64,000 nucleotides of DNA from Bacteroidaceae bacterium (lineage in GTDB: Bacteria > Bacteroidota > Bacteroidia > Bacteroidales > Bacteroidaceae): the NCBI GenBank assembly GCA_024398435.1, contig JAKSJD010000007.1:49157-113156 (forward strand). Reading direction: 5' to 3'. Made by a program: the position numbers and the translations under genes. Every line of letters starts with the position of its first letter. The stretch's first letter is position 1. The notes beneath the pieces were generated by a model, which saw nothing but the letters and a program-made list of their open reading frames with translations, was not told the DNA's origin and did not search any database. Shown piece by piece: positions 10,005 through 64,000 of the stretch.

Positions 10005-10581
10005 ACTAAAATTTGCGAAACAGAAAACTTTTTTGCAACTTTGTTGCAGTTAACAGTTTATAGTTTGTCGTTTAACGAGATTTTCTTTAGTTTTCCATCA
10101 TTCATCTTGTAATCATTCATTCATTTTCATTTGAATCTCGAATCCATGCGTCAAAACTAAAAGTAAGTCGATTCTTTGGCTTGTAAGGCAGTTTCAAATT
10201 TCAATTTCTATTGCTCGAAAACCTAAAATTCCCTGCTTCAAACTTAAATCAGCGTCGCCGTTTAATTAAATTACGTCGCCGTTTAATTAGGTTACGTACG
10301 CTGTTTAATTAAATTACGTCGCTGTTTTAATAATACACCTATAGAAAACATAAAATATTCCTATCGAATTGTGGAAATATTTATGGCTTTCGGAGGTCGT
10401 AGTCAGCATTCGACAAACTTCTTCTACAAATACACTTTCACCACAATTGCAACGATTATCATCTTCAACATTAAAGTAATAGCCATTGTAACTACAAAGC
10501 ATTTCGCGCGAAATGCAGACAAATCTTGTATAAGAATACAAGAAAAAGGAGAAAATGAGTTTGTATGTCGAAAATCTTTAC
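10005..10581. other. Intergenic region between asnA and the HerA-like gene
   Basis: About 580 nt of AT-rich DNA between divergent genes. It holds a short hairpin (TGCAAC/GTTGCA near 10035-10050) and the tandem array at 10251-10334. Small frames on both strands at 10314-10601 lack a start signal, and one overlaps the downstream promoter, so I do not call genes here. Confidence 0.6.
10251..10334. repeat. Tandem array, four units of 21-22 bp
   Basis: Units begin with CGTCGCCG (10253, 10274), CGTACGCTG (10295) and CGTCGCTG (10317), each followed by GTTTAATTA or a variant. Spacings are 21, 21 and 22 nt. Each unit contains the self-complementary core TTAATTAA or a near match. There are no spacers between units, so this is not a CRISPR array. 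Confidence 0.85.
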
Positions 10582-10589
10582 TATCTTTG
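10582..10589 (+). promoter_or_regulatory. -7 promoter box for the HerA-like ATPase gene
   Basis: TATCTTTG, 30 nt before the ATG at 10620. Confidence 0.75.
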
Positions 10590-10619
10590 CACAAATATTA
10601 ATTATCAAAACATAGATTC

Positions 10620-12206
10620 ATGTACACACAAGACAAGCAACTATACGTTGCACACGGACCTCAAGGACCTATTTCCATCTGCGGAAAGATGGCCAACCGT
10701 CACGGACTTATAGCTGGTGCCACGGGTACGGGCAAGACTGTCACTCTGCAAGTGTTGGCAGAAAGTTTCTCACAAGCTGGTGTGCCTTGCTTCATGGCCG
10801 ACATGAAAGGCGACCTCTCTGGTATCAGTCAAACTGGTACAATGAGTGGATTCATCGAGAAGAGATGCCAGGAATTCGGCATCGAGAATCCTCAGTTCGG
10901 CAGTTGTCCTGTATGTTTCTACGATGTATTCGGAGAAAAGGGACACCCTATGCGTACCACAATCTCCAACATGGGACCTGAACTCCTTGCACGTCTGCTC
11001 GACCTCAACGAAACACAGGCCGGTGTACTGAATATCGTGTTTAAGGTAGCTGACGAACGCGGGCTCCTTCTCATCGACATGAAGGACCTTCGCTCCATGC
11101 TCAACTACGTGGCCGACCACGCTTCAGAACTTACAAAGACTTACGGAAATGTAGCTGCTCCAAGCGTAGGTGCCATCCAGCGCGCACTTCTCGCTCTCGA
11201 AAATCAAGGTGCAGAACAGTTCTTTGCCGAACCTTCATTCGATATCATGGACCTGCTCCAATGCTCTGCTGATGGAAAGGGAATGATGAACGTGTTGGCT
11301 GCCGACAAACTGATGCTCAATCCAAAGCTCTATTCTTCGTTTCTCCTCTGGTTGCTCAGCGACTTATATGTTCAGCTTCCAGAAGTGGGCGACCTCGAAC
11401 TCCCTCGCCTCATATTCTTCTTCGACGAGGCACACACTCTCTTCGACGACACTCCAAAGGCATTGGTCGACAAGATCGAACAGGTAGTACGACTCATCCG
11501 AAGCAAGGGCGTAGGTGTTTACTTCGTAACTCAAAATCCAACAGACATACCAGATTCAGTGCTTGCACAATTGGGCAACAGAGTGCAGCATGCCCTTCGC
11601 GCCTTCACTCCAAAGGAACAGAAGAACGTACGCGCTGCTGCTGAAACATTCCGTGAGAACCCAAGTTTCAAGACCGAAGATGCTATCATGGAACTCGAGA
11701 CAGGCGAAGCTCTTGTTTCGTTCCTCGACGAAAAGGGCACACCTGCAATGGTAGAACGTGCCAAGATTCTCTTCCCTCTCAGCCAAATCGGTGCAGTGAC
11801 CGACCAGCAAAGAGACCTCACAATCAAGTCGTCGCGCATATTCGGCAAGTACGACAAGACTTTCGACCGTGAAAGTGCATTTGAAGTTCTCCTCGCAGAA
11901 AGTGAAGCCCAAATGCAAGCTCAGCAAAATGCCAAAGCTGCTGCCGAGCAAGCCAAGATAGATGCAAAGGCTCAGAAAGAGCAGGAAAAGGCAGAGAAGG
12001 GTTCGAAGAAGAAAGGAATCCTCGGAAGCGTACTCGGAGCCGTGATCACAAGCGTAACAGCTGCACTCGGTACTCAGATAGCCAACAAGGTGACTGGTAC
12101 GAAGAGCCGTTCGACACAATCTATCGGCAAGCAAGTGGCAAAATCAGCCGTAAGCACAGCCACTCGCCAACTCTCACGCAGCATCCTCGGAAGCCTCATC
12201 AAATAA
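10620..12206 (+). CDS. HerA/YjgR-type ATPase (DUF853)
   Basis: A cytoplasmic P-loop ATPase of the HerA-FtsK superfamily, 528 aa. Walker A GATGTGKT is at 33-40. Walker [10 protein letters not shown] is near residue 265, and [29 protein letters not shown] matches the C-terminal motor motifs of YjgR. The tail (about 430-528) is a Lys/Ala/Glu-rich coiled coil followed by a Gly/Ala/Ser/Thr-rich stretch. The biological role of YjgR is not settled; DNA translocation is inferred from the fold. It has its own promoter. pheS follows 57 nt later and may be partly co-transcribed. Confidence 0.88.
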
Positions 12207-12263
12207 GAAAAGATTGACCATCACACTCAATAGAATATAAACATACAACAAACATAAATACAA

Positions 12264-13283
12264 ATGTTAGAGAAAATTCAAGCAATGCTTGCTGAAGTGG
12301 AAACCCTCGAGGCTCACAACGCTGACGAACTCGAAGCCCTCCGCATCAAATATCTCAGCAAGAAAGGAAGTATCACTGCCCTCATGGCCGACTTCCGCAA
12401 CGTACCCGCTGACCAAAAGAAGGAAGTAGGTATCAAGATTAACGAGTTGAAGACAAAGGCTACAGAAAAAATCAATGCCCTCAAGGCTGAATTCGAAACT
12501 GCCGACACTGACACCGACGACATCGATATCACTCGTACAGCATATCCAATCGAACTTGGCACACGTCATCCACTCACAATCGTCAAGAACGAAATCATCG
12601 ACATCTTCTCTCGTCTGGGCTTCTCATTGGCAGAAGGTCCCGAAGTAGAAGACGACTGGCACGTATTCGGTGCAATGAACTTTGCCGAAGACCACCCAGC
12701 ACGCGATATGCAGGACACATTCTTCATCGAAAGCCATCCTGACGTAATTCTTCGCACTCACACAAGTTCGGTTCAGAGCCGCGTGATGGAACGCACCCAA
12801 CCTCCTATCCGCATCATCTGCCCAGGACGCGTTTACCGCAACGAAGCTATCAGTGCACGCGCTCACTGCTTCTTCCACCAAGTAGAAGGTCTCTATGTAG
12901 ATGAAAACGTAAGCTTCACCGACCTTAAGCAAGTACTCCTTCTCTTCGCTCGCGAAATGTTTGGCGAAAACACTCAGATACGTCTCCGTCCTTCTTACTT
13001 CCCATTCACCGAACCATCAGCAGAGATGGATATCAGTTGCAACATCTGCGGCGGCGAAGGTTGTTCGTTCTGCAAACACACTGGATGGGTTGAAATCCTT
13101 GGATGTGGAATGGTAGACCCAGCAGTGCTCGAACTCAATGGTATCGACAGCAAGAAATACAAGGGCTATGCCTTTGGTATGGGTGTTGAACGCATCACCA
13201 ACCTGAAGTATCAGGTGAAGGACCTTCGTATGTTCAGCGAAAACGACACTCGTTTCCTCAAAGAATTCGAAGCTGCCAATTAA
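12264..13283 (+). CDS. pheS: Phenylalanine-tRNA ligase alpha subunit
   Basis: The catalytic subunit of the alpha2-beta2 enzyme that charges tRNA-Phe. At 339 aa it is the normal length. The N-terminal coiled coil (residues 1-90) binds tRNA. The class-II motifs are seen in HPLTIVKNEI, GPEVEDDWHVFGAMN, PARDMQDTFFIE, RVYRNEAISARAHCFFHQVEG and GFGMGVER-like AFGMGVERI. pheT is not adjacent, as is usual in Bacteroidetes. A strong terminator follows. Confidence 0.97.
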   Translation: MLEKIQAMLAEVETLEAHNADELEALRIKYLSKKGSITALMADFRNVPADQKKEVGIKINELKTKATEKINALKAEFETADTDTDDIDITRTAYPIELGTRHPLTIVKNEIIDIFSRLGFSLAEGPEVEDDWHVFGAMNFAEDHPARDMQDTFFIESHPDVILRTHTSSVQSRVMERTQPPIRIICPGRVYRNEAISARAHCFFHQVEGLYVDENVSFTDLKQVLLLFAREMFGENTQIRLRPSYFPFTEPSAEMDISCNICGGEGCSFCKHTGWVEILGCGMVDPAVLELNGIDSKKYKGYAFGMGVERITNLKYQVKDLRMFSENDTRFLKEFEAAN

Positions 13284-13310
13284 CAGAACATTTCCCCACT
13301 CTATCATATC

Positions 13311-13350
13311 ATCAGCATTGACACAACAACGTCAGTGCTGATTTTTTATT
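13311..13350 (+). terminator. Rho-independent terminator after pheS
   Basis: A 12-bp stem pairs ATCAGCATTGAC (13311-13322) with GTCAGTGCTGAT (13331-13342) with one G-U pair, followed by TTTTTATT. Confidence 0.9.
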
Positions 13351-13430
13351 CATTTTGGCTTCAAATGCCATATGATTTGTGGGTAAAACAAAGAAAACTA
13401 AAAAAAAGTTCAAAAAAAATTGGTAAAAGT

Positions 13431-13461
13431 TTTGGTAGTAACAAAAAATGTTGTACCTTTG
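13431..13461 (+). promoter_or_regulatory. Promoter of tRNA-Asp
   Basis: A -33 TTTG at 13431-13434 and a -7 TACCTTTG at 13454-13461 with a 19-nt spacer, as in Bacteroidetes sigma-A promoters. The 17-nt stretch TACCTTTGCACTCGCAA is repeated exactly at the tRNA-Cys promoter. Confidence 0.75.
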
Positions 13462-13491
13462 CACTCGCAATTCGGAAATGAGTCGCAAAAA

Positions 13492-13565
13492 GGTGTGTTA
13501 GTTCAGTAGGTTAGAATACCTGCCTGTCACGCAGGGGGTCACGAGTTCGAGTCTCGTACACACCG
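13492..13565 (+). tRNA. tRNA-Asp (anticodon GTC)
   Basis: A 74-nt cloverleaf: acceptor GGTGTGT/ACACACC, anticodon stem CCTGC/GCAGG with loop CTGTCAC (GTC), T arm ACGAG-TTCGAGT-CTCGT and discriminator G. The CCA end is not encoded. It is followed by its own terminator. Confidence 0.97.
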
Positions 13566-13575
13566 CAAAGAAGAT

Positions 13576-13608
13576 GAGGAAGCAGACGTTTCCTCTTTTC
13601 TTTTTTTA
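13576..13608 (+). terminator. Rho-independent terminator after tRNA-Asp
   Basis: GAGGAA (13576-13581) pairs with TTCCTC (13590-13595), followed by a T-rich run. Confidence 0.8.
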
Positions 13609-13639
13609 GTACCTAACCATTTTTTCAAAACACCCAAAC

Positions 13640-14071
13640 ATGAGCAATCTCGACTTTTTCAACATAGCCAAAGATAAGGATTCACAAATCCCTTATGCCG
13701 ATGGCGGAGTAAAGGCAGGATTCCCATCGCCTGCTCAAGACTATATGGACCAAACCATCGACTTCAACAAAGTACTTATCAGCCATAAGGCTACCACATT
13801 CTGTACACGCGTATCAGGCGATTCAATGATTGATGCCAACGTATTTGATGGAGATTATCTTATTGTCGACCGTTCGCTCGAACCCCACAACGGCGATATG
13901 GCTGTTTGTTTCATCGACGGAGAGTTCACACTCAAATTTATCGAACTTGCAAACAATCAGCTTTGGCTCCGCCCTGCCAACCCCAACTATCCCAAAATCA
14001 AAGTAAGCGAAGAAAGCGACTTCATCGTATGGGGAGTCGTTACATATATCATCCACAAAGCAAGAGATTAA
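13640..14071 (+). CDS. umuD: UmuD-like S24 peptidase, accessory subunit of DNA polymerase V
   Basis: A LexA/UmuD-type self-cleaving protein of 143 aa. A likely Ala26-Gly27 cleavage site lies in VKAGFPSP. The catalytic Ser62 is in VSGDSM and the general-base Lys99 in FTLKF. After RecA-stimulated cleavage the product would join UmuC in translesion synthesis. It is the first of three tightly packed genes (10 and 5 nt gaps) ending in umuC. No SOS operator is recognised in the 31 nt between the tRNA-Asp terminator and the start codon. Confidence 0.95.
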   Translation: MSNLDFFNIAKDKDSQIPYADGGVKAGFPSPAQDYMDQTIDFNKVLISHKATTFCTRVSGDSMIDANVFDGDYLIVDRSLEPHNGDMAVCFIDGEFTLKFIELANNQLWLRPANPNYPKIKVSEESDFIVWGVVTYIIHKARD

Positions 14072-14081
14072 AAGATTCTAT

Positions 14082-14699
14082 ATGAAGCAGCAAGTAAATC
14101 CAAGCGAAACAACAAGAGCAAATGCATTCAATCTTTGGATGTCATCTCCGATGCCAATGGTCACTTTGACAAAGACTTTGGACGTAACACGACTTATAAA
14201 ATACTGCAAGAAGTATGATTATAAGTTCAACATGTTACTTTGCTGGACCATAGGTCAGGCTGCCTCTAAAGTCAAGGAATTCTATATGCTCCCAGAAAAA
14301 GGCGGCATATACCGTTATGACGAACTATCAATAAACGTCATCGTACCAAACGTGAATGGAGGAATCAATTCATGCGACATCCAAATGTCAGATACATTGA
14401 ACGACTTCAATGAAGATTATCTTCGTCTCACAAATTTAGTATCGCTGAATTGCAAGAGCCAATTTCGGGAAGACACAATGGTCATTGGAACATCTGCAAT
14501 GATACAGACCGAACTCGACACAATAACCAATCAATATACGGATACCTTCCTGAATCCTATGCTTCTATGGGGCAAATACCGACGAAAATGTTTCCGATAT
14601 AAGTTGCCAGTATCATTCCAATTCCATCATGTACAGATGGACGGCATGCATGGTGCCATGTTTCTTGAGGAACTACAGAAAAGCATCGATAATATATAA
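14082..14699 (+). CDS. Chloramphenicol-acetyltransferase-like protein inside the umuDC unit
   Basis: A CAT-fold acyltransferase of 205 aa, close to the 210-220 aa of classical CAT. The catalytic HxxxD motif is present as H183-V-Q-M-D187 in FHHVQMDGMHG, and the C-terminal FLEELQK end is typical. Similarity elsewhere is weak and the substrate is unknown; the name does not imply chloramphenicol resistance. It lies 10 nt after umuD and 5 nt before umuC, so it should be expressed with the SOS polymerase. It could be a housekeeping acyltransferase that joined the operon or a partner of the damage response. Confidence 0.85.
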   Translation: MKQQVNPSETTRANAFNLWMSSPMPMVTLTKTLDVTRLIKYCKKYDYKFNMLLCWTIGQAASKVKEFYMLPEKGGIYRYDELSINVIVPNVNGGINSCDIQMSDTLNDFNEDYLRLTNLVSLNCKSQFREDTMVIGTSAMIQTELDTITNQYTDTFLNPMLLWGKYRRKCFRYKLPVSFQFHHVQMDGMHGAMFLEELQKSIDNI

Positions 14700-14704
14700 A
14701 TTAT

Positions 14705-15973
14705 ATGTTCGCCCTTTGCGATTGTGATTCGTTTTTTGCCTCTTGTGAACGTGTGTTCCGCCCCGATCTGTATGGCAAGCCAGTTGTTGTGTTGAGCAAC
14801 AACGACGGATGTATCGTGGCCTTAACGAAAGAAGCAAAGGCAGTAGGACTTAAACGCGGTATTCCCCTCTTTCAGGCGCGCGATATAATAGAAAAGAATA
14901 ATGTGTACGTTTTTTCGAGCAACTACGAACTCTATGGAGATATCTCGGCACGCGTGATGCAACTCTTGGCTGACGAACATGGAGACATTGATGTCTATTC
15001 CATTGATGAAGCTTATTTCAATATCGACGGAATAAAGCCAGAAGGACTGAGAAGCCGGCTCGAACAACTCAGAAAGAAAATATATAAGGGTATCGGTGTG
15101 CCCGTATCTATAGGTGTGGGTCAAACCCGAACACTCGCTAAAGTAGCTTCACACTTTGCTAAGAAAGTACCGGGATATCACGGGGTTTGCATTATCGACA
15201 CAGAAGAAAAGCGAGAGAAAGCCTTGCAACTCTTTCCCGTTGGCAATGTTTGGGGAATTGGTCGACGACTCAGTAAAATCACAGATTATTATGGTATCAC
15301 AACAGCTTACAGCTTTGCCGACAAACCCGAAGCATGGATTCGCAACCACTTCAAAATGCCAGGAGTTCGTACATGGAAAGAACTCAGAGGCATCCCTTGC
15401 AAGGAAATAGACGATTTGCCAGAAAAGCAAAGCATCTGCACAAGCCGTTCATTTGGCAAGATGGTAACAGATTTCGAACAACTGTCGGAAAGTATTGCCA
15501 ACTTCACTTCCAGTTGTGCCCGAAAACTACGAAAGCAAGGTTCTGTTGCTGGTAATATTACTGTGTTTGTCCTAACCAACCGCCACAGGGAAGATCTCGA
15601 GCAATATGCCAACAGCCGCACTATCCCTCTACCCGTCCCCACTGCATCCACACTCGAACTCATCCAATATGCCCTGATTGCACTCAATAGCATCTATGAA
15701 CCTGGATACCAATACAAGAAAAGTGGAGTAATTGTTTCGGATATCTCAAAAAGTGAAGGTGTGCAGCAAAACCTCTTCGACAATGTGGACCATACTAAAT
15801 ACCAACGTCTCACGAAAGCCATCGACAAGGTGAACAGCATGTATGGAACCGATGCTGTAAAAGTGGCTTTACAAGGAAACGGACATAGGGATTGGAACCT
15901 AAAGAGAGAACACAAGTCGCCTTGCTACACAACCAACATCAAGGACGTACTTATAGTCAAGGCTGATAAATGA
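14705..15973 (+). CDS. umuC: Y-family DNA polymerase V catalytic subunit
   Basis: Error-prone polymerase for copying damaged DNA, 422 aa, the normal length of UmuC. Metal ligands are in MFALCDCDSFFASCE (Asp6/Asp8) and YSIDEAYFNID (Asp101, Glu102). The palm and finger motifs VVVLSNNDGCIVA and PVSIGVGQTRTLAKVASHFAK, the helix-hairpin-helix WGIGRRLS and the little-finger domain (about 235-345) are present. It closes the umuD-CAT-umuC unit and is followed by a hairpin terminator. Confidence 0.96.
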   Translation: MFALCDCDSFFASCERVFRPDLYGKPVVVLSNNDGCIVALTKEAKAVGLKRGIPLFQARDIIEKNNVYVFSSNYELYGDISARVMQLLADEHGDIDVYSIDEAYFNIDGIKPEGLRSRLEQLRKKIYKGIGVPVSIGVGQTRTLAKVASHFAKKVPGYHGVCIIDTEEKREKALQLFPVGNVWGIGRRLSKITDYYGITTAYSFADKPEAWIRNHFKMPGVRTWKELRGIPCKEIDDLPEKQSICTSRSFGKMVTDFEQLSESIANFTSSCARKLRKQGSVAGNITVFVLTNRHREDLEQYANSRTIPLPVPTASTLELIQYALIALNSIYEPGYQYKKSGVIVSDISKSEGVQQNLFDNVDHTKYQRLTKAIDKVNSMYGTDAVKVALQGNGHRDWNLKREHKSPCYTTNIKDVLIVKADK

Positions 15974-15976
15974 AAA

Positions 15977-16012
15977 AAGGAACCCTACATATCCCATGCG
16001 TGGTTCCTTCTA
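15977..16012. terminator. Terminator between umuC and tRNA-Cys
   Basis: AAGGAACC (15977-15984) pairs with GGTTCCTT (16002-16009). A-rich and pyrimidine-rich flanks could serve umuC on the plus strand and tRNA-Cys on the minus strand. Confidence 0.7.
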
Positions 16013-16044
16013 CTATAAACAGCTTTATGAAACTTATATTGTTG

Positions 16045-16116
16045 AGGTCGGTACCCGATTCGAACGGGTGTTGACGGTTTTGCAGACCGTTGACTAAGCC
16101 TCTCATCCAACCGACC
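16045..16116 (-). tRNA. tRNA-Cys (anticodon GCA)
   Basis: Minus-strand cloverleaf: acceptor GGTCGGT/ACCGACC, anticodon stem ACGGT/ACCGT with loop CTGCAAA (GCA), T arm ACCCG-TTCGAAT-CGGGT. The discriminator is U, the identity base for tRNA-Cys. The CCA end is not encoded. Confidence 0.96.
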
Positions 16117-16135
16117 GTGCTTTGTTTTGCGAGTG

Positions 16136-16143
16136 CAAAGGTA
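16136..16143 (-). promoter_or_regulatory. -7 promoter box for tRNA-Cys
   Basis: Minus-strand TACCTTTG, 19 nt upstream of the mature tRNA 5' end. The adjoining bases are the same as at the tRNA-Asp promoter (TACCTTTGCACTCGCAA). Confidence 0.7.
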
Positions 16144-16249
16144 GGAAAAAAAGCGGAACGAACAATGCAGAAAGAAGATTTTTTTCAAAAAACCTATGTT
16201 TTTCCATAAAAAAACAGCCGTTTTAGTCATCACTGTCATAAATATAGAG

Positions 16250-16257
16250 TATCTTTG
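16250..16257 (+). promoter_or_regulatory. -7 promoter box for tilS
   Basis: TATCTTTG, 46 nt before the tilS ATG. Confidence 0.7.
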
Positions 16258-16303
16258 CAGTAGAGAAATCAACTTTAGAACTAAAAACGGATAGCATAAA
16301 ACA

Positions 16304-17614
16304 ATGAATCGTCCAACCGACATCCTCGAAATTATCAGTCAATTCATCCAAGACAAACATCTGATGAACCCAGACGACCACATCGTCGTGGCATTGAGTG
16401 GCGGTGCCGATTCTGTGTTTCTGCTTCATTCACTTATCAGCATTGGCTACCATTGCGAAGCGGCTCATTGCAATTTCCACCTTAGAGGCGAGGAAAGCAA
16501 CCGTGACGAAGAGTTTGTCAAATCCTTGTGCAAACGCCTGAACACAAAGCTCCATACCATCAGTTTCGATACCGAAACCTATGCCAAGCAAAAGGGCATC
16601 AGCATCGAAATGGCTGCAAGAGAACTTAGGTACAAATGGTTTGAGAAGATTAGGAAAGAAAGCAATAGCCAATACATTGCCGTGGCACATCATCGAGACG
16701 ACAACATCGAGACAGTTCTCCTTAATATGCTTCGTTCGACAGGATTGAAGGGCATGCGTGGAATTCAGCCAAAGAACGGCCACATCGTACGACCTTTGCT
16801 CTGTATCAGCCGTAAAGACATCCTCCACCACCTGAAATCAATGGGAGAAACGTATGTGAATGACAGCACGAACTTTGAGACAATATACAAGCGAAACAAA
16901 ATAAGGCTCGAACTGATGCCTTTGCTTCGCACAATCAATCCTGCTGCCGACCAAACACTATCTGCTACAATAGATAATCTCGACGAAGCTTTCAAGGTTT
17001 ATGACGACAACATGAAACGCCTCACGAGCTATTGCTCACACAAGGAAGGCAACACATTATATATTAATATAAAGAACGTATCAGATTGTTGTTCCCATAT
17101 TTCCGTTGCTCACGAACTTTTGTCGCCAATGGGTTTTAATCGTTGTCAGATTGACGAATTGCTTGCTGGCACAAAGGTTGGAAGCAAGTTCGAGACAAGC
17201 AGTCACACTCTGATTGTTGACCGCAACGAATGGATTGTGGCACCAAAGGATGAAGAACCATTTGAAGAAACTCTGCTTTGCGACTTCAAGGATATCCGTT
17301 GCGAAGAGAAGGAAGCCAAAGGAATTGAGTTCGACAGCAATCCAAAAGTGGCTTATATTGATATAGAAAAGATTAAGGGCAATCTAAAAGTAAGAACTGC
17401 AAGGGAAGGCGATTCGTTCCAACCTTATGGAATGAAAGGCAGAAAACTCCTAAGCGACTTCCTTACCGACAAGAAACTTTCGCGCAAGGACAAAGAAAGG
17501 CAATTGGTCGTTTGCGACGATAATGATATTGTTTGGGTGGTTGGTTTGCGTAGTAGCGATAAATACAAAGTTGACAAAAGCAGCAAACGCATCTTGATTC
17601 TATCTGTTGAATAG
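16304..17614 (+). CDS. tilS: tRNA(Ile)-lysidine synthetase
   Basis: Converts cytidine 34 of the CAU-anticodon tRNA-Ile to lysidine so that it reads AUA. An N-type ATP pyrophosphatase of 436 aa. The PP-loop SGGADS is at 32-37, followed by CNFHLRGEES and VAHHRDDNIETVLLNMLRSTGLKGM, the TilS signature. The C-terminal domain ends with RVRTAREGDSF-like KVRTAREGDSFQPYGMKGRKLLSDFLTDKKL. It is convergent with the radical SAM gene, with a 15-nt gap and no obvious terminator. Confidence 0.96.
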   Translation: MNRPTDILEIISQFIQDKHLMNPDDHIVVALSGGADSVFLLHSLISIGYHCEAAHCNFHLRGEESNRDEEFVKSLCKRLNTKLHTISFDTETYAKQKGISIEMAARELRYKWFEKIRKESNSQYIAVAHHRDDNIETVLLNMLRSTGLKGMRGIQPKNGHIVRPLLCISRKDILHHLKSMGETYVNDSTNFETIYKRNKIRLELMPLLRTINPAADQTLSATIDNLDEAFKVYDDNMKRLTSYCSHKEGNTLYINIKNVSDCCSHISVAHELLSPMGFNRCQIDELLAGTKVGSKFETSSHTLIVDRNEWIVAPKDEEPFEETLLCDFKDIRCEEKEAKGIEFDSNPKVAYIDIEKIKGNLKVRTAREGDSFQPYGMKGRKLLSDFLTDKKLSRKDKERQLVVCDDNDIVWVVGLRSSDKYKVDKSSKRILILSVE

Positions 17615-17629
17615 GATTACTTCTATTGC

Positions 17630-18700: not shown

Positions 18701-18712
18701 AGCGATTGATTT

Positions 18713-19786: not shown

Positions 19787-19846
19787 CTTTCTTCCTCCTT
19801 ATCTACTTCCATTATGTTGTATGTTTCGCATTCCGAGCCGACTGTA

Positions 19847-21037: not shown

Positions 21038-21557
21038 GTGAATAATCGACAATAAACCAACACCATTCGGCAAATATCTTCATAAATTTGGCCCTAAAAC
21101 CACAATTTTCCCATATTTGCCTTTCGGCAAAGCCTAAATCGAGCATTATTTCAAAAACCTAAAACCTACAAAAACAAAACCTCAAACCCATGGCTTAAAA
21201 AGTCGAAACACGAGGAAAACAAAATCGTACTTCGGGTTTGGTACAATCGTACTTAGCGTTTAGTACAATTGTACTCAACGTTTGGTACAATCGTACTTAG
21301 GGTTTGGTACGATTAATTCTCCCACAAAAATCATAAAATATCCCATGCTGTTTCATATTTCTTTCCTTGCTCCGAAAACTTTCTTTACTTTGTAACAACT
21401 CCGACAACCAATAAATATCACACTCCAATCTGCCCCACATTATATAAATAATTGTATGTAAAACACGTTTATACCCACCGTTTGCGAAGATTGAAGCCAC
21501 AGAAATCGGGCTTTCATGCCAAAATAAACAAAATTTCACGAAAACGCTTTGCCCTTT
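21038..21557. other. Intergenic region between the thioesterase and the 214-aa gene
   Basis: About 520 nt between divergent genes. It contains the 22-bp tandem array at 21225-21312. The frames crossing it lack a credible start and contain no recognisable protein. The rest is AT-rich with no other structure I can support. Confidence 0.6.
21225..21312. repeat. Tandem array, exactly four units of 22 bp
   Basis: Units start at 21225, 21247, 21269 and 21291. Each begins TCGTACTT or a variant (TTGTACTC in the third) and ends GGTACAA, AGTACAA or GGTACGA. In each unit the ends TYGTAC and GTACRA form an inverted repeat around a 10-nt centre, so the array is a series of dyads with no spacers. Confidence 0.93.
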
Positions 21558-37997: not shown

Positions 37998-38060
37998 GAA
38001 CTGACTTACATATTGACACCACAGGCTTTTTTCAGTTTGGCTCCGCCGAATTAAAATTTC

Positions 38061-38126
38061 TTGCTAAACTTCGGGGCATGTCTCGCTAAACTTTGGGGCA
38101 TGTCTTGCTAAACTTTGCATGACCTC
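38061..38126. repeat. Tandem array, three units of 22 bp
   Basis: Units start at 38061, 38083 and 38105. Each begins TTGCTAAACTT or TCGCTAAACTT, and the first two end GGGGCATGTC. The third diverges after GCTAAACTTTG. It resembles the reverse complement of the array at 58291-58372. Confidence 0.88.
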
Positions 38127-38141: not shown

Positions 38142-38361
38142 GTCAATTTGTCAATTTGTCAATTAACTAATTTGTGGGTTTTTCATTGGTGCGCAAAAAA
38201 TTTGTTCCTCAATATTACTTATTTAATGATTAAATTATTATTAAAAAACACTTCTTATTATATATATAATATATATATTATATATAATAAGGGCAAGTAT
38301 CCCTCAGGCCTCCACACACTAAAAACAGCTAATTGACAAATTGACAAATTGACAAATTGAC
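38142..38361. mobile_element. 220-bp inverted-repeat (MITE-like) element
   Basis: The left end is three 8-nt units (GTCAATTT twice, GTCAATTA; 38142-38165). The right end is four complementary units (TAATTGAC, then AAATTGAC three times; 38330-38361). The 24 nt at 38142-38165 are the exact reverse complement of 38330-38353. The middle carries a near-palindromic run of alternating A and T (38255-38290). There is no coding frame and no clear target duplication, so mobility is only a possibility. Confidence 0.6.
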
Positions 38362-54203: not shown

Positions 54204-54231
54204 AAACTCGAATTCGTTCTATTCCAATTTG

Positions 54232-54239
54232 CAAAGGTA
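54232..54239 (-). promoter_or_regulatory. -7 promoter box for lptD
   Basis: Minus-strand TACCTTTG, 28 nt upstream of the ATG at 54203. Confidence 0.7.
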
Positions 54240-54306
54240 ATAAAAATTCCTGTAATAAGCAGCAATAGGTTTACAAAACCTATTCATAATGACAAAAAAA
54301 AGCGAT

Positions 54307-54846: not shown

Positions 54847-54874
54847 TTTTCACCTTCTGATTTCGTTGGAACTA

Positions 54875-55747: not shown

Positions 55748-55772
55748 AAGGCGGTTCTTTTCGTATTATTAC

Positions 55773-57626: not shown

Positions 57627-57657
57627 GGGAATAGATTAGTTTAATGTTTGCTCTTTA

Positions 57658-58125
57658 TCAATAATATCTTCTGAATTCTGCCACCTTATATATATTATTA
57701 GTTACATCGATGCCGTAAAGTCCGAATACGACATCAAAGTTGTCAAGCCCTGAGAAGTCGATTGAATCGCCATAAGTATTGACCAATGCCTTGCGGACAT
57801 CGTTTGGGGTCAATGTCTTCAAAAGGTTTTCGTATGTAACCTTTGCCTGTCCGTCGCAAACTGCCTGTGCATAATAAACAGAACTTACATTTGTCTTTGC
57901 TTCCTCATAGAAGAGAGATTGGATTCCAGTGAATGCGATTCCCTTTGTTGCAAACACGTCATTAATGTATTGTTCGAACACTACATCGGCCGAATCAGAG
58001 AAGAAGATGCTGTCGCACTTTCCCTGATATGGAACTCGAGCTTCTGACTCGTCATCTTTATTGCACGAAACGAAAGCGAAAGATGCTGCTAACATAAGAG
58101 CAGCCATAAACAATAATTTCTTCAT
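57658..58125 (-). CDS. Small lipoprotein of unknown function
   Basis: 155 aa from the ATG at 58125; the earlier in-frame start at 58200 lies upstream of the promoter. The lipobox is FVSC (Cys21). The mature part has no family I recognise; it includes KCDSIFFSDSADVVFEQYIND and ends in KVAEFRRYY. It is the first gene of a probable unit with PL11 and MscS. Confidence 0.75.
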   Translation of the reverse strand: MKKLLFMAALMLAASFAFVSCNKDDESEARVPYQGKCDSIFFSDSADVVFEQYINDVFATKGIAFTGIQSLFYEEAKTNVSSVYYAQAVCDGQAKVTYENLLKTLTPNDVRKALVNTYGDSIDFSGLDNFDVVFGLYGIDVTNNIYKVAEFRRYY

Positions 58126-58156
58126 ATTCAATAGTAATTTAATATTTTTTGCTTTG

Positions 58157-58164
58157 CAAAGATA
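58157..58164 (-). promoter_or_regulatory. -7 promoter box for the lipoprotein-PL11-MscS unit
   Basis: Minus-strand TATCTTTG, 31 nt upstream of the ATG at 58125. Confidence 0.72.
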
Positions 58165-58485
58165 GGAAAAATATTTTATTCTGCAATACACTAATCTCAT
58201 AAAATTCGTCTTATTCGGTTGCTTCGTTTGAATGTTTCCCTATATGCAAAATAAAGTTGTCAAAACACGCAATATAATGGTGTGAAAATTTCTTGCTAGA
58301 AATGGCTCCGAGTTTAGCGAGAAATGACCTCATGTTTAGCGAGAAATGACCTCGAGTTTAGCAAGAAATTTTTCAATGCCTTGCTAATGGCTTTCAAAGG
58401 TGCATATTTTATGGTTTCAAGGACGAAAAAAGTATTGTTTTTCATTTATGAAAGGCTCGTGGTACTTCCTTTGATAAAAAATCGC
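58165..58485. other. Intergenic region between divergent units
   Basis: About 320 nt of AT-rich DNA. The only structure I see is the 22-bp tandem array at 58291-58372. A 63-codon frame that crosses the array is not credible as a gene. Confidence 0.6.
58291..58372. repeat. Tandem array, about four units of 22 bp
   Basis: TTTAGC recurs at 58313, 58335 and 58357, exactly 22 nt apart, each time followed by GAGAAATG or AAGAAATT. A degenerate first unit begins near 58291. In reverse complement it shares TCGCTAAAC and GGTCAT-type blocks with the array at 38061-38126. Confidence 0.88.
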
Positions 58486-58493
58486 TATATTTG
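58486..58493 (+). promoter_or_regulatory. -7 promoter box for the secreted OB-fold gene
   Basis: TATATTTG, 27 nt before the ATG at 58521. Confidence 0.65.
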
Positions 58494-58520
58494 CAAAAAT
58501 ATTCATAAAAAGTAATGATG

Positions 58521-60542
58521 ATGAAGAAAATTGCATTGATGATTGCCTTGTTTCTTGCAGGGATTAACATGTGGGCAGTATCAACTACCTACACATTCAC
58601 TTCGCTCAATTGGAGCAGTAAAGTAGGAACTATCAAGACAGACGGAAAGACGGATGGATGGATTTCAGATAAGGATGCAACCGACTACAACGAAGGTCGA
58701 ACCGATGCCGAAGGAAGACTTTATTCGAGAGGCGTTGGCGTGAAAACCGGAACTTCCGGAGCCGGAGCCACTTCGGTTTTGGAATTCAGCAATGTAAGAA
58801 GAGTTGAAATCGACTTTTGTCAAAATTCGTCAAAGGGAAAAGGTACAATCTATGTACAGGTTGGAGAAGGCGAAATAGCAGCAATCACAGTAAATCGTCC
58901 AGAAACAAGCGGCCAAGGAGTGTACAATCGTCAGGAAACAATGACATTCTCGGAATGCTCTGGTCACATCAAGTTTTGGGTGGAATGCCAGGAAAACGGC
59001 ATTTACATCAACACAATAACTGTCAAAGCCGACAATGGAAGCCCTAACAATCCGGGCGTTTCCACTGATGTTTTCAAGCTTGTAACCAGCAAAGATGCCC
59101 TCAACGAAGGCGACCAAGTGATTTTTGGAGTTGCAAAGGAAGGCATAAACTATATGATGGGCTTTTATGACGAAGCCAACAGCCGAAACAACATCTTCGC
59201 TGTCAAGGCCACTTATGATGCTGACCGTCAGACAATAAACCGCCAAGACGAATGTATTTATACTGTTGGAATCGAGGAAAACGGCTTTACATTTGCCGAC
59301 CAATGGGGTTGGTATTTGGTTGCAAGCGGTGGAAATCCTAACAAGGGCAACAACAACTATCTGACTGTTTGGGACAGTTTCACAAGCCGAAATTATGGTG
59401 ATTATGGTATTTGGAATGTTACGATTTCGGCAGATGGAAGTGCTTCTGTAAAGAGCCAAGGCGTTTCCCGAAGCTGTTATCTCCAATACAATCCAAGCGG
59501 AGCAAACAATCATCCAATCTTCGCTTGCTATGGAGACGAACAATATGCAAAGGTGGCAATCTACAAACTTCAGGAAACAGCCGATGTTACCGAACCAGTG
59601 ATTATTGCAAACTTTGTAAACTTCGGAACTCAAATAATTGACGCAGAGGCTGTTTCGGGAGAAAAACAAATTGAAATAACCGCATACAATCTCTCTGATG
59701 AAATCGATGTAAGCCTCAAGAATGACAATCCTGTCTTTGAAATTGGCAGTGTTCAACTCGACAGAGACGGAGAACCTCTCATCATCAAATACAATGCCAC
59801 CGAACCCGGATTGTACATTGACACTCTTCTTTTGCAAAGCGGAACCACAAAGACGGAAGTCAGCATTATGCTGAATGTAGAGAAGCAAAAGACGATTGCT
59901 GAAGCAAAGCAGCAGCCAGATTTGACAACTTGCTACTTGAATCCTGTGGTAGTAACAAAGAAATATGACAGATACATTTTCGTAGAAGACGCAACCGGAG
60001 GAATGCTTCTCTATGATGCCGGAAACCAATACGGACAAGGTTTGACCAACGGAAACATCCTCACAGGTGTTTGTGGCTACAAGAAGGATTATTACGGCAA
60101 TCCGGAAATCACTCTTCAAGAGCAATTCTCTGTTGCCCAAGGCGAGGAAAAAGCTCCTGCAATTGCCACTGAAACACTTACAGAAAATGATGTTTGCAGC
60201 TATGTTCGCCTCGAAAATGTGGAAATGGGCGAAGGTGGAAGAAGCGTAATCTTCAATGGCAGCGAACTCTCTTTCTATGATATTTTCAATTATGTAGGCG
60301 ACTATCACTACCCTACTTCAATGACTTACTCGGTCGAAGGAATTGTCTATTTCTACGACAAACTCGTTTTCTGCCCTTCAAAGATTGAGGCATGGGAAGA
60401 CACGGGAATTGAACATATTCAAGCAGAAGATAACATTTCAAGCAAAAACATATTCGACCTAACAGGTAGAAAACTCAACAAAGCCAACCTCAACAACGGC
60501 ATTTATATTGTCGGAGGAAAGAAAATCATAATCAAGAACTAA
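58521..60542 (+). CDS. Large secreted multi-domain protein with OB-fold and C-terminal sorting-like tail
   Basis: About 673 aa; three ATGs in a row (58515, 58518, 58521) make the start uncertain by two codons. The signal peptide ends near MWAVSTTYT. The N-terminal 150 residues are a beta-sandwich (SLNWSSKVGT...ITVKADNG). Two middle domains follow. Residues about 465-640 look like an OB-fold (PVVVTKKYDRYIFVEDATGGMLLYD). The end, FDLTGRKLNKANLNNGIYIVGGKK, resembles a type IX secretion C-terminal signal. Function unknown; surface binding is likely. Its stop overlaps the next start (TAATG). Confidence 0.85.
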   Translation: MKKIALMIALFLAGINMWAVSTTYTFTSLNWSSKVGTIKTDGKTDGWISDKDATDYNEGRTDAEGRLYSRGVGVKTGTSGAGATSVLEFSNVRRVEIDFCQNSSKGKGTIYVQVGEGEIAAITVNRPETSGQGVYNRQETMTFSECSGHIKFWVECQENGIYINTITVKADNGSPNNPGVSTDVFKLVTSKDALNEGDQVIFGVAKEGINYMMGFYDEANSRNNIFAVKATYDADRQTINRQDECIYTVGIEENGFTFADQWGWYLVASGGNPNKGNNNYLTVWDSFTSRNYGDYGIWNVTISADGSASVKSQGVSRSCYLQYNPSGANNHPIFACYGDEQYAKVAIYKLQETADVTEPVIIANFVNFGTQIIDAEAVSGEKQIEITAYNLSDEIDVSLKNDNPVFEIGSVQLDRDGEPLIIKYNATEPGLYIDTLLLQSGTTKTEVSIMLNVEKQKTIAEAKQQPDLTTCYLNPVVVTKKYDRYIFVEDATGGMLLYDAGNQYGQGLTNGNILTGVCGYKKDYYGNPEITLQEQFSVAQGEEKAPAIATETLTENDVCSYVRLENVEMGEGGRSVIFNGSELSFYDIFNYVGDYHYPTSMTYSVEGIVYFYDKLVFCPSKIEAWEDTGIEHIQAEDNISSKNIFDLTGRKLNKANLNNGIYIVGGKKIIIKN

Positions 60543-62185
60543 TGACTCAGGAATTTCAACTGCGGATTCTGCCCGAACAGGCAGCAAGCAAAGAAGCGAT
60601 TATTCGCTTTCTTCAGGAAGACAAAGGCATTGACAGGCAAAGCATCACTGACGTTAGAGTGCTGAAAAGAAGTATTGATGCACGCCAGCGAACAATCTTT
60701 GTCAACCTAAAAGTTCGTGTGTATATTAATGAAGAACCCGCAGATGATGAGTTCGAACGCCATGAATACCGAAGCGTCGAAGGCAAGAAAGAGGCAATAG
60801 TCGTTGGAGCCGGACCTGGTGGATTATTTGCTGCATTGCGACTTATCGAATTGGGAGTTCGTCCAATCGTATTGGAAAGAGGCAAGAATGTTCACGAACG
60901 AAGGAAAGATATTGCCAAGATTTCGCGCGAGCACAAGGTGAATTCAGAATCCAACTACTCTTTTGGAGAAGGTGGAGCCGGTGCTTTTTCGGATGGAAAA
61001 CTCTATACAAGAAGCAAGAAACGAGGCAATACCGACCGTATTCTTCATATTTTCTGCCAACACGGGGCATCAACAAATATTCTCACTGATGCACATCCTC
61101 ACATCGGAACTGATAAGTTGCCAAAGGTGATTGAGAACATGCGAAACACCATTCTCGCATGTGGTGGAGAGGTGCATTTCATGACTAAAGTTGTGGGATT
61201 GAAGCTCAACGGGGATGAAGTTGTGGGAGTTGATGCTATTGAACAAGCAGAAAACGGAGAAAAGGAATGTACGTTCAATGGTCCGGTAATATTGGCAACA
61301 GGTCATTCTGCAAGAGACGTTTACCGTTGGTTGTTTGCAAATAAGATTGAGATTGAGGCAAAAGACCTTGCAGTTGGTGTTCGTTTGGAACATCCGGCTC
61401 ATCTTATCGACCAGATTCAATATCATAATCGCCAAGGCAAGGGCAAATATTTGCCAACAGCCGAATATTCTTTTGTCACTCAGGTTGAGGGGCGAGGCGT
61501 TTATTCTTTCTGTATGTGCCCAGGCGGAACGGTTGTTCCTGCTGCAAGTGGAGACGAACAAATCGTCGTGAACGGAATGTCTGCAAGTCTTCGCAATTCA
61601 CCTTGGAGCAACAGCGGAATGGTTGTGGAACTCCATGCAGAAGATTTAGAGGCAATCAATCAACAAGCAAACTGGTCAACTGATCAACAAGATAAGACTT
61701 CAATAGCTGGTTCTTGTTCTCCGATAGACAATCCTCTGTGTATGATGGAATTTCAGGAGAGGTTGGAAAAACTCTGTTGGCTTCAGGGCAATCGCATGCA
61801 AACAGCTCCTGCTCAACGTATGGCCGACTTCGTTAACAATCGGCTTTCGGGTTCGCTTCCACAAACTTCCTACCAACCAGGAGTGATTTCTTCCCCACTC
61901 CATTTCTGGATGCCGAAGTTCATCACAAAGCGTCTGCAAGGAGGATTCCAACAATTCGGGCGTTCAAGTCGAGGTTTCCTGACGAACGAAGCCTTGATGA
62001 TTGGTGTGGAAACTCGTACATCTGCACCTGTGAGAATCGTAAGAAATGCAGAAACTCTTCAACACATTCGCATCGAAGGATTGTTCCCTTGCGGCGAAGG
62101 AGCCGGTTATGCGGGTGGAATTGTTTCGGCCGGAATAGACGGAGAACGCTGTGCCGAAATGTTGGCAGAATGGATAAAGAGATAA
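60542..62185 (+). CDS. FAD-dependent oxidoreductase, COG2509-like
   Basis: 547 aa, no signal peptide, so cytoplasmic. An N-terminal 80-residue alpha/beta domain is followed by the FAD motif GAGPGGLFAALRLIELG (about 88-104), NSESNYSFGEGGAGAFSDGKLYTRSKK, VILATGHSARDVY and the C-terminal GEGAGYAGGIVSAGIDGERCAE. The substrate is unknown. It is coupled to the upstream secreted protein by a one-base start/stop overlap, which is odd for two proteins in different compartments. The gene's last codons are part of a 22-nt tandem duplication. Confidence 0.92.
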   Translation: MTQEFQLRILPEQAASKEAIIRFLQEDKGIDRQSITDVRVLKRSIDARQRTIFVNLKVRVYINEEPADDEFERHEYRSVEGKKEAIVVGAGPGGLFAALRLIELGVRPIVLERGKNVHERRKDIAKISREHKVNSESNYSFGEGGAGAFSDGKLYTRSKKRGNTDRILHIFCQHGASTNILTDAHPHIGTDKLPKVIENMRNTILACGGEVHFMTKVVGLKLNGDEVVGVDAIEQAENGEKECTFNGPVILATGHSARDVYRWLFANKIEIEAKDLAVGVRLEHPAHLIDQIQYHNRQGKGKYLPTAEYSFVTQVEGRGVYSFCMCPGGTVVPAASGDEQIVVNGMSASLRNSPWSNSGMVVELHAEDLEAINQQANWSTDQQDKTSIAGSCSPIDNPLCMMEFQERLEKLCWLQGNRMQTAPAQRMADFVNNRLSGSLPQTSYQPGVISSPLHFWMPKFITKRLQGGFQQFGRSSRGFLTNEALMIGVETRTSAPVRIVRNAETLQHIRIEGLFPCGEGAGYAGGIVSAGIDGERCAEMLAEWIKR

Positions 62186-62211
62186 AAGAGCATGGATAAA
62201 GAGATAAAAGA
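62170..62211. repeat. 22-nt tandem duplication at the oxidoreductase stop codon
   Basis: ATGGATAAAGAGATAAAAGA at 62170-62189 recurs at 62192-62211, an offset of exactly 22 nt. The first copy contains the natural stop codon (62183-62185); the second copy is non-coding. Confidence 0.9.
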
Positions 62212-62244
62212 AATAAGGTGACCGCTTGGCCACCTTATTTTATT
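62211..62244. terminator. Bidirectional terminator between the oxidoreductase gene and lemA
   Basis: AAATAAGGTG (62211-62220) pairs perfectly with CACCTTATTT (62231-62240), followed by TATTT. It overlaps the end of the 22-nt duplication. Confidence 0.85.
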
Positions 62245-62825
62245 TAGAATTGAACTTCAGGAGCTTTCTCGCTTCCTTCATCAGCCTTGAAGTTTGCTTT
62301 CTTATCGAAACCTCCGATTCCTGCAACAATGTTAGCTGGGAAACGACGAACTGCAACATTGTATTCCTGCACTACTTCATTGAATTCTGCACGACTCTTC
62401 TGAATGCGGTTTTCTGTTCCTTCAAGTTGGGTTTGCAATTCCTGGAAGCTTTCGTTTGCCTTCAGTTCTGGATAGTTCTCTGCAACTGCAATGAGTTTGC
62501 CGAGAGCTGAAGTGATTTCTCCCTGTGCTGCCTGGAATCTTTGCAATTCCTCTTCAGTAAGGTTTGTAGGGTCGATTTGGATACTTGAAACCTTTGCACG
62601 AGCTTCAGTGATTTCCTTGAAAGTGTTTTCTTCGTGCTGAGCATAGCCTTTGACTGTGTTCACGAGGTTTGGAATCAAGTCGGCACGACGTTGGTATTGT
62701 GTTTCAACGTTTGCCCAAGCCTTTGAAACGCCTTCATCCTTTGATACAAGTCCGTTATAGACGCTGATTCCCCAAACTATAGCTATTACAGCTACAATGA
62801 TTAAAGCGATTGTACTTTTTTTCAT
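62244..62825 (-). CDS. lemA: LemA family protein
   Basis: 193 aa. One N-terminal membrane segment (TIALIIVAVIAIVWGISVYNGLV) is followed by the long helical LemA domain, with NVETQYQRRADLIPNLVNTVKGYAQHEE and QGEISSALGKL-like residues, and RFPANIVAGIGGF near the end. The function of LemA is unsettled; it is often paired with TPM-domain proteins, as here (the TPM gene is 62 nt upstream). Confidence 0.95.
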   Translation of the reverse strand: MKKSTIALIIVAVIAIVWGISVYNGLVSKDEGVSKAWANVETQYQRRADLIPNLVNTVKGYAQHEENTFKEITEARAKVSSIQIDPTNLTEEELQRFQAAQGEITSALGKLIAVAENYPELKANESFQELQTQLEGTENRIQKSRAEFNEVVQEYNVAVRRFPANIVAGIGGFDKKANFKADEGSEKAPEVQF

Positions 62826-62887
62826 ACTTTGAAGTTTTTGAATTGTTATTTATTGTTTTCTTCTGTTTTCGAGCCAATGATTATCGT

Positions 62888-63784
62888 TTAGAATCGGCCG
62901 GTACTTCCGCCTCCTCCAAAGTGTCCACCACCGAAATGTCCACCGATTGGGCCTCCGCCTCCTCTGCCGAAGCCTCCCATTCCTCCGCCTATGATGGTGC
63001 CGCCACCTATTCCTCCGGAGTTGTTGTCAGGATTGTCCACTATCTTGGTCATTTCGTATTTGCAATTGCTGCAACGGTAAGTGACGCGAATCTTGTTTCT
63101 TCCAGCCGTTTCCGTCTTGACTGCAACCATTTTCCGTTTGCCGCATTTTGGGCATTTCTTCACGTTTGCGAAGTAGATGAGCATTACGAGCATCACGAAG
63201 AAAAGGCCGCAGAAGAGCATTCCTACCCAGAATTCCTCAGGACGGATTTCGTCTTCCTCATAGCCTTCCTTAAAGTTTTCGTCGCCTCGAATATAGCCGT
63301 CGATTGCGGTCATTGTGGCCAACATAGCTCCATCCCAATCGCCTTGGCGGAGGAAAGGAATCATATGATAGTTCTGAATTCTTCGACAAATGGCGTCGGA
63401 CAATGCTCCTTCGAGGCCTTCGCCCGTCAGAATCGTGTAGCTTCTGTCGCCTACACAAAGCATCACGAAGAGGCCGTCGTCCTTGCCTTCATGGCCGATT
63501 CCGTATTTGTCGGACACTTCCTGTCCAAAGGCATAAGGGTCGTCGCCTTCGATATGATTGACTACTGCCACAACACTCTGAACTCCGGTTTCGTGTTCCA
63601 TTGCGAGCAGCATCTGGTTGAGGCTGTCGACAGTGGCTTCACTGAGGATTCCTTCTGGGTTTATCACGTATTTCGTACGGTCTTGAAGGTACACCATCGG
63701 AAGGTTGTCGGGTGTCCAATAGGTCTGTGCGAAAACGGTCGAAACCATCAGCAGCATCATTATGTTGAGCATCAATCTTTTCAT
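62888..63784 (-). CDS. TPM-domain (YgcG-type) membrane protein
   Basis: 298 aa. The signal peptide MKRLMLNIMMLLMVSTVFAQ is followed by the TPM domain (about 35-165: VINPEGILSEATVDSLNQML...ILTGEGLEGALSDA). A single membrane segment (WVGMLFCGLFFVMLVMLIYF) follows, then a zinc-ribbon-like CPKCGKRK...CSNCKYE and a Gly/His-rich tail (repeated GGG and FGGGHFGG blocks). The role is unknown; pairing with LemA is conserved. Promoter at 63804-63811. Confidence 0.93.
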   Translation of the reverse strand: MKRLMLNIMMLLMVSTVFAQTYWTPDNLPMVYLQDRTKYVINPEGILSEATVDSLNQMLLAMEHETGVQSVVAVVNHIEGDDPYAFGQEVSDKYGIGHEGKDDGLFVMLCVGDRSYTILTGEGLEGALSDAICRRIQNYHMIPFLRQGDWDGAMLATMTAIDGYIRGDENFKEGYEEDEIRPEEFWVGMLFCGLFFVMLVMLIYFANVKKCPKCGKRKMVAVKTETAGRNKIRVTYRCSNCKYEMTKIVDNPDNNSGGIGGGTIIGGGMGGFGRGGGGPIGGHFGGGHFGGGGSTGRF

Positions 63785-63803
63785 ATTTCAGCATTGTATA
63801 GGG

Positions 63804-63811
63804 CAAAGGTA
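63804..63811 (-). promoter_or_regulatory. -7 promoter box for the TPM-lemA unit
   Basis: Minus-strand TACCTTTG, 19 nt upstream of the ATG at 63784. Confidence 0.72.
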
Positions 63812-63885
63812 AGAAAATTCTGCGAAACTATCGATATTTTATTAAGATTTTTTAATTTTTTCATCCATACCTCGAATTTATTTAG

Positions 63886-63893
63886 TATATTTG
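63886..63893 (+). promoter_or_regulatory. -7 promoter box reading out of the window
   Basis: TATATTTG on the plus strand. A transcript from here would begin near 63899 and would run through the 22-bp array that follows. The gene it serves is beyond the window. Confidence 0.6.
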
Positions 63894-63921
63894 CAGTAGA
63901 ATATTCTTATAGGAGTTATTC

Positions 63922-64000
63922 CGATACGAACATGATCGTACGTCAATACGAACATGATCGTACGTCAATACGAACATGATCGTAACGCGATACGAACATG
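63922..64000. repeat. Tandem array of 22-bp units running off the window
   Basis: ATACGAACATG recurs at 63924, 63946, 63968 and 63990, exactly 22 nt apart. The first three units continue ATCGTACGTCA (third: ATCGTAACGCG). The window ends inside the fourth copy, so the array may be longer. Confidence 0.92.

Follow-up and report, generated by a model that had tools for sequence, protein, structure and literature searches.

Several dispersed families of short intergenic tandem arrays share a 22-bp pitch in a Bacteroidaceae genome

The window, a 64,000-nucleotide stretch of contig JAKSJD010000007.1 (GenBank assembly GCA_024398435.1) from a member of the Bacteroidales, contains five intergenic tandem arrays (A1–A5, in order along the stretch), each of which is one member of a family dispersed through the organism's own genome. 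The families differ in sequence, and their units recur at a pitch of 22 bp. The reading we favour, to which we assign a probability of roughly one half, is that the arrays are short, non-autonomous dispersed elements whose pitch would be kept by side-by-side occupancy by a dimeric protein.

With A1 as the query, family F1 was found at 17 places in the window's own genome (G000; 2.32 Mb in 32 contigs, 77.6% complete); A2 retrieved family F2 at 13 places, and A4 retrieved family F3 at 25 places at E ≤ 1e-5 (22 when the search was repeated), A3 being another F3 member. Family F4, searched with A5, occupies 11 places, two of which are probably one array split between contigs, and a fifth family, F5 (TAATTATGTACAATATT...), occurs 13 times in the sampled sequence of this genome. 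The families (F1–F6) and the dyad centres used below are our own definitions; genes were called with a home-made open reading frame (ORF) heuristic, and the genomes are mostly fragmented metagenome-assembled genomes (MAGs), the relatives being MAGs from rumen and gut that carry the labels Bacteroidaceae, Prevotellaceae or Bacteroidales.

A preliminary description of the window had made a genome-wide excess of repeats at 21–22 bp the test of its idea; with about half of the genome now scanned (60 stretches plus the window, 1.255 Mb), the idea withstands this test, a sharp peak being seen at 22 bp. Tandem Repeats Finder (TRF) reported 103 non-overlapping arrays of at least 2.5 copies in this sample, 54 with period 22, 13 with period 21 and one with period 23. 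Coding repeats are ruled out as the source of the peak: 19 of the 103 arrays lie inside ORFs of at least 150 aa and were excluded from non-coding counts, and outside such ORFs period 22 accounts for 51/84 arrays and period 21 for 11/84. Some of the period-21 arrays belong to F1, in which units alternate between 22 and 21 bp with one base missing in the CGTACG centre. A chance origin of the five arrays is also ruled out, as no TRF array scoring at least 60 arose when the window was simulated 20 times under a first-order Markov model (1.28 Mb in total), and a single simulation of the 1.255-Mb sample produced one.

Arrays of F2 and F4 appear to have been copied whole, as elements of fixed size. 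Four units at 22-bp spacing are present in 13/13 F2 loci (an additional scan hit being in L006), and three units in 9/10 F4 loci. For F2, unit identity is.851 between units of the same index in different loci,.831 between units of other index, and.835 within a locus; the corresponding values for F4 are.810,.790 and.820. The index difference was reached by 1/300 permutations for F2 (11/13 loci used) and 0/300 for F4 (9/11 places used), a weak signal of shared unit order, whose certainty is overstated by such shuffles since family members are not independent. Identity within a locus shows no excess over same-index identity between loci in F2, and almost none in F4. In F5, 8/13 elements carry the same one-base-shortened unit directly after a TTGCGG end. 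Copy number in F3 is more variable (approximately 2.5 to 5.9 units), and whole-element copying therefore fits F2 and F4 best.

The element ends follow the same spacing. A 22-bp end unit, TTTTATGTTTTCTATAGGTGTA, is common to F1 and F5, and the end of F4 is a shorter form of it (TTTCTATTG/TTTCTATAG). From the end dyad, CTA|TAG, to the first core dyad the distance is 23+22k bp (23, 45 or 67, ±0.5 base) in 40 of 51 cases (F1 14/16, F4 14/16, F5 11/17, F2 1/2), sides lacking a recognisable end motif, among them 24/26 F2 sides, adding no distance. An end motif at 23+22k bp is common to three unrelated core families, and weakly so to a fourth (F2). Elements of F1 and F4 are inverted repeats as wholes, with inverted ends found in F1, F4 and F5. 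In the 1.255-Mb sample, a search for an autonomous parent by the F1, F4 and F5 end sequences found these only beside arrays; for the F2 end sequence, 2/9 loose matches lie away from arrays.

The pitch extends beyond the arrays themselves. In 53 segments lying 12–140 bp outside F1, F2, F4 and F5 arrays, self-match at lag 22 reaches.352, which is an excess of.068 (bootstrap.053–.083); the neighbouring lags 21 and 23 give.296 and.289, respectively. Lag 22 is the top flank lag in F1, F2, F4, F5 and F3/other, each taken separately, and 600 control intergenic segments have no lag-22 excess (-.0004; -.013 to.013). Taken together, the flank signal and the spacing of the ends indicate that unlike sequences occupy one 22-bp grid.

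The anatomy of the motif was analysed in a relative, G016, where 18 loci were cut out, from at least 40 places, and 17 were used, L372 giving no unit chain. Loci were oriented by unit, in-register motifs were allowed up to three mismatches, and chains start and end on a motif by construction. Similarity to the unit is.28–.29 upstream of the first 12-bp dyad, GAGGATATCCTC, and falls from.88 through.65 to.53 over the three bases downstream of the last motif, then approximately to chance; no conserved flank was seen around the 17 arrays. Amongst 93 motifs, which are not independent within one locus, 38 match perfectly, 53 have deviations in one half and two in both halves, where independence predicts 8.3; paired change is carried by none of the 90 motifs whose fixed pattern would allow it. 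One-half deviations without paired change make the dyads protein-like rather than hairpin-like, and the pattern of substitution resembles that of a site for a dimeric protein in which one half is anchored. In F4, the canonical base of the variable pair is present in at least one half in 28/29 distinct units. Compensating changes show no excess in the dyad arms of F1, F2, F4 and F5; in F1 and F4 the arms pair less than they do after shuffling of columns, with F1 units partly out of register through one-base deletions. Significant dyads (p<0.05) occur in 9/43 families of period 21–23 and in 0/40 families at other periods. A CRISPR (clustered regularly interspaced short palindromic repeats) array, which requires unique spacers, was rejected, since the part between motifs repeats within each locus.

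Arrays are replaced, or present and absent, at sites that can be aligned between genomes. Upstream of herA, G016 has six GAGGATATCCTCGCGGTGTGTT units and its congener G015 (to which loci L355 and L357 belong) has five GTCTTTCGGCCTTGCATCATCG units; the flanks align at 83–89% whilst the array sequences are unrelated, and one G016-like unit remains at the left edge of the G015 array. The G016 unit is found at at least 40 places in G016 (40 scored of 171 first-look candidates) and at one in G015; its G015 counterpart matches 15 times within G015 and not at all in G016, and neither unit has a match in G000 or G008. As the families of these units are dispersed through each genome, the units arrived from elsewhere or spread out, and did not merely drift. 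G008 has a 22-bp array of a third sequence upstream of herA. A1 likewise lies upstream of herA, but its flanks did not align with the G015/G016 site.

A survey of 93 sequences (the window plus 92 loci surrounding herA) contained 43 arrays of period 20–24, and five period-22 arrays have flanks alignable in another genome; two form the replaced pair and three are absent from the other genome. A 245-bp block of L227 is absent from L225 (Prevotella sp. MA2016), with flanks 92% and 89% identical, and a 165-bp block of L189 is absent from L194, where the flanks are 74% and 84% identical; L186 lacks the array that L190 has at 12418, a less clear case with poorer flank coverage. These present/absent sites concern families of the relatives, and gain and loss are indistinguishable in such pairs. 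Since families differ between congeners yet can share a locus, the arrays offer a way to watch the replacement of non-coding sites. The block absent from L225 itself holds two adjoining 22-bp arrays of unlike sequence (L227:878-1122). The HerA encoded by contig L193, which is filed under Candidatus Crickella caballi (Bacillota), shares 75% identity with the Bacteroidales protein considered here; the contig is probably mis-binned.

Amongst the relatives, 22-bp arrays of other sequences are widespread but patchy, the samples (46–400 kb per relative) supporting several related genomes only. F3 has no match in 40 relatives at E ≤ 1e-5, F4 has none in 16 congeners at E ≤ 0.001, and F1 has one weak match in 16 congeners (G015, 69%). 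In 80 contigs from relatives (1.47 Mb), the commonest non-coding periods are 22 and 7 bp (9/44 each), and the top autocorrelation lag is 22; in ten small genome samples, 13/26 non-coding arrays have a 22-bp period. Lag 21 is the peak in G006, G010 and G023. An outside control, Escherichia coli K-12, has no lag-22 excess in approximately 9.8 kb of non-coding sequence from 150 kb. The weak F1 match (L349:1380-1714) lies amid other repeats of about 22 bp and is possibly a diverged or nested F1-like element. The congener G007 (L274–L293) has many dispersed arrays with 8/16-bp units of the AGTCTACAAGTCAACG type.

The G000 sample contains 70 arrays of period 21–22 with at least 2.3 copies, 56 of them with called genes on both sides; 53 of the 56 lie outside called genes. 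By orientation of the neighbouring genes, 26 of the intergenic arrays are divergent, 18 co-directional and nine convergent, where.22,.63 and.15, respectively, are expected by length. This bias is largely explained by the exclusion of insertions from operons; a regulatory role of the arrays is possible. In G016, 5/17 loci overlap a called ORF, although some of these ORFs are probably spurious.

The preliminary description knew of no named family that fits. This holds in part: BrickBuilt, a miniature inverted-repeat transposable element (MITE) of Porphyromonas gingivalis, is close, with a unit of 23 nt, and was the only close precedent we found in the literature. Some sites of its unit are conserved and others vary; the units, 1 to 22.8 per element, have no spacers between them, a leader and a tail reach up to approximately 300 nt, and the terminal inverted repeats (TIRs) match IS5-family elements (PMC4596501). 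Strain ATCC 33277 has 19 copies, all intergenic, and the element is known from P. gingivalis and P. gulae (PMC4596501). The same paper mentions 22-nt repeats in P. gingivalis W83, which by its account had been neither located nor compared across species, and MITE464/PgRS, the PgRS unit being 41 nt long and lying within small dispersed elements (PMC4596501). Our comparison with BrickBuilt is by description. As in BrickBuilt, the arrays consist of tandem units of about 22 nt without spacers, dispersed in intergenic DNA within the order Bacteroidales. They differ in that several unrelated families per genome share 22 bp, where BrickBuilt is one 23-nt family, and in that two families have a mostly constant number of units, the ends are short and no conserved flank was seen in G016. 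MITE464/PgRS and the W83 repeats are likewise tandem repeats, some of 22 nt, with PgRS set apart by its 41-nt unit. We found no earlier description of the constancy of 22 bp over unrelated families, within one genome and in related genomes, nor of the common lattice or of family replacement at an orthologous site.

In the mechanism we favour, the arrays would be copies of dispersed intergenic elements, short (approximately 60–250 bp) and non-autonomous, comparable in kind to BrickBuilt (a minisatellite MITE); each element lines up motifs, frequently with dyad symmetry, every 22 bp. Plasmid iterons are direct repeats approximately two helical turns apart, in few copies, with a geometry that suggests side-by-side binding. 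By analogy, the pitch would be kept by a dimeric DNA-binding protein sitting side by side on roughly one face of the helix, whilst the sequence would be free to turn over with the specificity of the protein, or, were the element selfish, new families would replace old ones. Side-by-side binding had been proposed from the window alone and is still, by inference, the best account of the pitch, which recurs with other sequences in several relatives but not in every one. Conserved spacing with sequence free to vary is a hint that some gut Bacteroidales possess an unseen machine that binds or moves DNA, and the arrays could serve as bait for the protein or transposase responsible.

Several observations weigh against this mechanism. 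No protein or transposase was identified for the arrays, and two helical turns of 10.5 bp each do not make exactly 22 bp. Significant dyads are restricted to the minority of 21–23-bp families given above, with 34 of the 43 lacking one, and all eight elements folded as single-stranded DNA lie below the shuffle mean (z -5.45 to -1.44). In G016, unit identity is.860 within a locus and.789 between loci, indicating local homogenisation, and no constant target-site duplication was seen in F4 loci on inspection by eye. As regards distribution, the eleven 22-bp arrays of at least 2.5 copies in the relatives' contigs (coding arrays included) are confined to 7/80 contigs, the congener G007 has mostly 16- and 8-bp arrays (22 bp in 3/32), and the samples of G011, G017 and G024 have no lag-22 excess.

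The likeliest rival, though we consider it doubtful, is that the arrays are purely selfish, MITE-like DNA, mobilised by a transposase acting in trans that reads the end motif, with the pitch inherited from an ancestor and without function. Such a transposase could read the end unit TTTTATGTTTTCTATAGGTGTA, which F1 shares with F5, and its shorter form in F4; arrays are missing at alignable sites in relatives, and their location (53/56 non-coding, 18/53 co-directional against.63 expected) is as if operons exclude insertions; the IS5-like TIRs reported for BrickBuilt offer a precedent (PMC4596501). Inherited pitch without constraint should drift, however, and yet the F1, F2, F4 and F5 cores are unrelated to one another, and unrelated sequences elsewhere also have 22 bp. 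Nor do the G016 arrays have conserved sequence before the first motif or beyond approximately three bases past the last, and no constant duplication was seen. Mobilisation by a RAYT (REP-associated tyrosine transposase; REP, repetitive extragenic palindromic) was rejected, as a Y1_Tnp/RAYT search gave no match in G000 at 77.6% completeness (other transposase families were not searched); Y1_Tnp has a match in 14/25 genomes searched.

Rather unlikely, in our view, is local tandem duplication on an inherited lattice, in which degenerate repeats mispair at 22-bp steps so that the period is kept and the sequence drifts. The degenerate 22-bp lattice around the arrays is consistent with this, as is the herA site, where different 22-mers are amplified in G015 and G016 with a G016-like unit left in G015. 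In G016 the units are also more alike within loci than between them, which whole-element copying alone does not explain. The fixed unit number, weak shared order and near-absence of a within-locus identity excess in F2 and F4 of G000 argue against it, as does the finding that the herA-site units are members of families spread through each of the two genomes. Local 22-nt duplication, the other mechanism suggested in the preliminary description, may thus act in G016, but is not needed for F2 and F4, because these look like whole fixed-size copies.

A variant of protein occupancy, which we regard as a speculative and unlikely possibility, is that related Bacteroidales carry a system of phased operator arrays, in which the 22-bp geometry would be conserved whilst each lineage exchanges the sequence across its whole genome, in step with the rapid evolution of a dimeric DNA-binding protein or of several paralogues. 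The same sites would then be re-occupied at the same pitch, a bacterial counterpart of satellite or PRDM9-type turnover.

That the elements act instead as hairpins or cruciforms, in RNA or single-stranded DNA, appears improbable. The wholly inverted F1 and F4 elements and the negative folding scores of all eight elements (z below -4 in four of them) favour such structures, as does the restriction of significant dyads to the 21–23-bp families (9/43 against 0/40). Against this stand the lack of covariation in the dyad arms, with 2/93 G016 motifs changed in both halves and paired change in 0/90; the Rfam result, only three transfer RNAs (tRNAs) being found in the window at gathering thresholds and the arrays having no match; and the lack of a RAYT-type match in G000. 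Comparable elements are REP sequences and REPINs, which are short, palindromic, extragenic and non-autonomous, with several families per genome, REPINs being inverted doublets with hairpin potential and associated RAYTs (PMC3116915). The arrays share these general features but, unlike REPINs as so described, are rows of direct repeats at a fixed pitch with arms that do not covary.

A plasmid origin, with chromosomal copies of iteron arrays acting as resident sites or as decoys that titrate plasmid initiators, is very improbable: 22-bp spacerless tandem repeats in 3–6 copies have the geometry of iterons but occupy many chromosomal intergenic loci, and F1, F2, F3 and F4 arrays had no match in 72,556 plasmids (rumen plasmids probably being poorly sampled), F1 none in phages and four exact family patterns none in viral contigs, for which reason plasmid, phage and viral origins were rejected for the families searched, an initiator gene not having been looked for.

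Within the window, TRF recovered all five of the arrays noted in the preliminary description, to within approximately 10 bp or less, and the period of exactly 22 reported for four of them was reproduced (A2–A5), A1 being assigned period 21. A1 (F1; 10244..10327, without assigned strand, as for the other arrays) lies in the divergent gap between asnA and herA and has four units of the type TTAAACRGCG[TA]CGTAATTTAA, spaced 22, 21 and 22 bp. The left end motif of its element, TTTCTATTG, is at 10205..10213 (+ strand), 44.5 bp from the first core dyad centre (locus L027), and the 22-bp end unit on the right, TTTTATGTTTTCTATAGGTGTA in minus-strand reading, is at 10334..10355, with its CTA|TAG dyad 22.5 bp from the nearest core dyad centre; an identical copy of this unit is found at an F5 element in L168. 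A2 (F2; unit GTACCAAACNNNNAGTACRATY; 21223..21310; 22 × 4.0) is in a divergent intergenic region. A3 (F3; unit TCTTGCTAAACTTTGGGGCATG; 38059..38117; 22 × 2.7) has a GDSL lipase gene on one side and a glycerate kinase gene on the other, and A4 (F3 in the opposite orientation; AGAAATGACCTCGAGTTTAGCG; 58298..58369; 22 × 3.3) is again divergent intergenic; the two match at 82% and are the one related pair that had been noticed.

A5 (F4; 63924..64000; 22 × 3.5) consists of an 18-bp dyad, ATACGATCATGATCGTAT, plus 4 bp, and is cut by the end of the window, which is also the end of contig C30, so that its copy number is a lower bound. The last 55 bases of the window (63946-64000) are identical to the first 55 of contig C28 (G000:C28:1-55, L109); the assembly was therefore probably broken inside A5, and C30 and C28 are probably adjacent on the chromosome. 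Arrays of this kind can thus interrupt assembly.

Two further observations concern other repeats. Beside A3, at 38142-38361, two mutually inverted 8-bp arrays, GTCAATTT (2.9 copies) and AATTGACA (3.9 copies), bracket an AT-rich palindromic stretch. The commonest 12-mer of the G000 sample is ATGCAGGATGCA, with 35 occurrences in 1.255 Mb, an abundance that hints at another dispersed short repeat.

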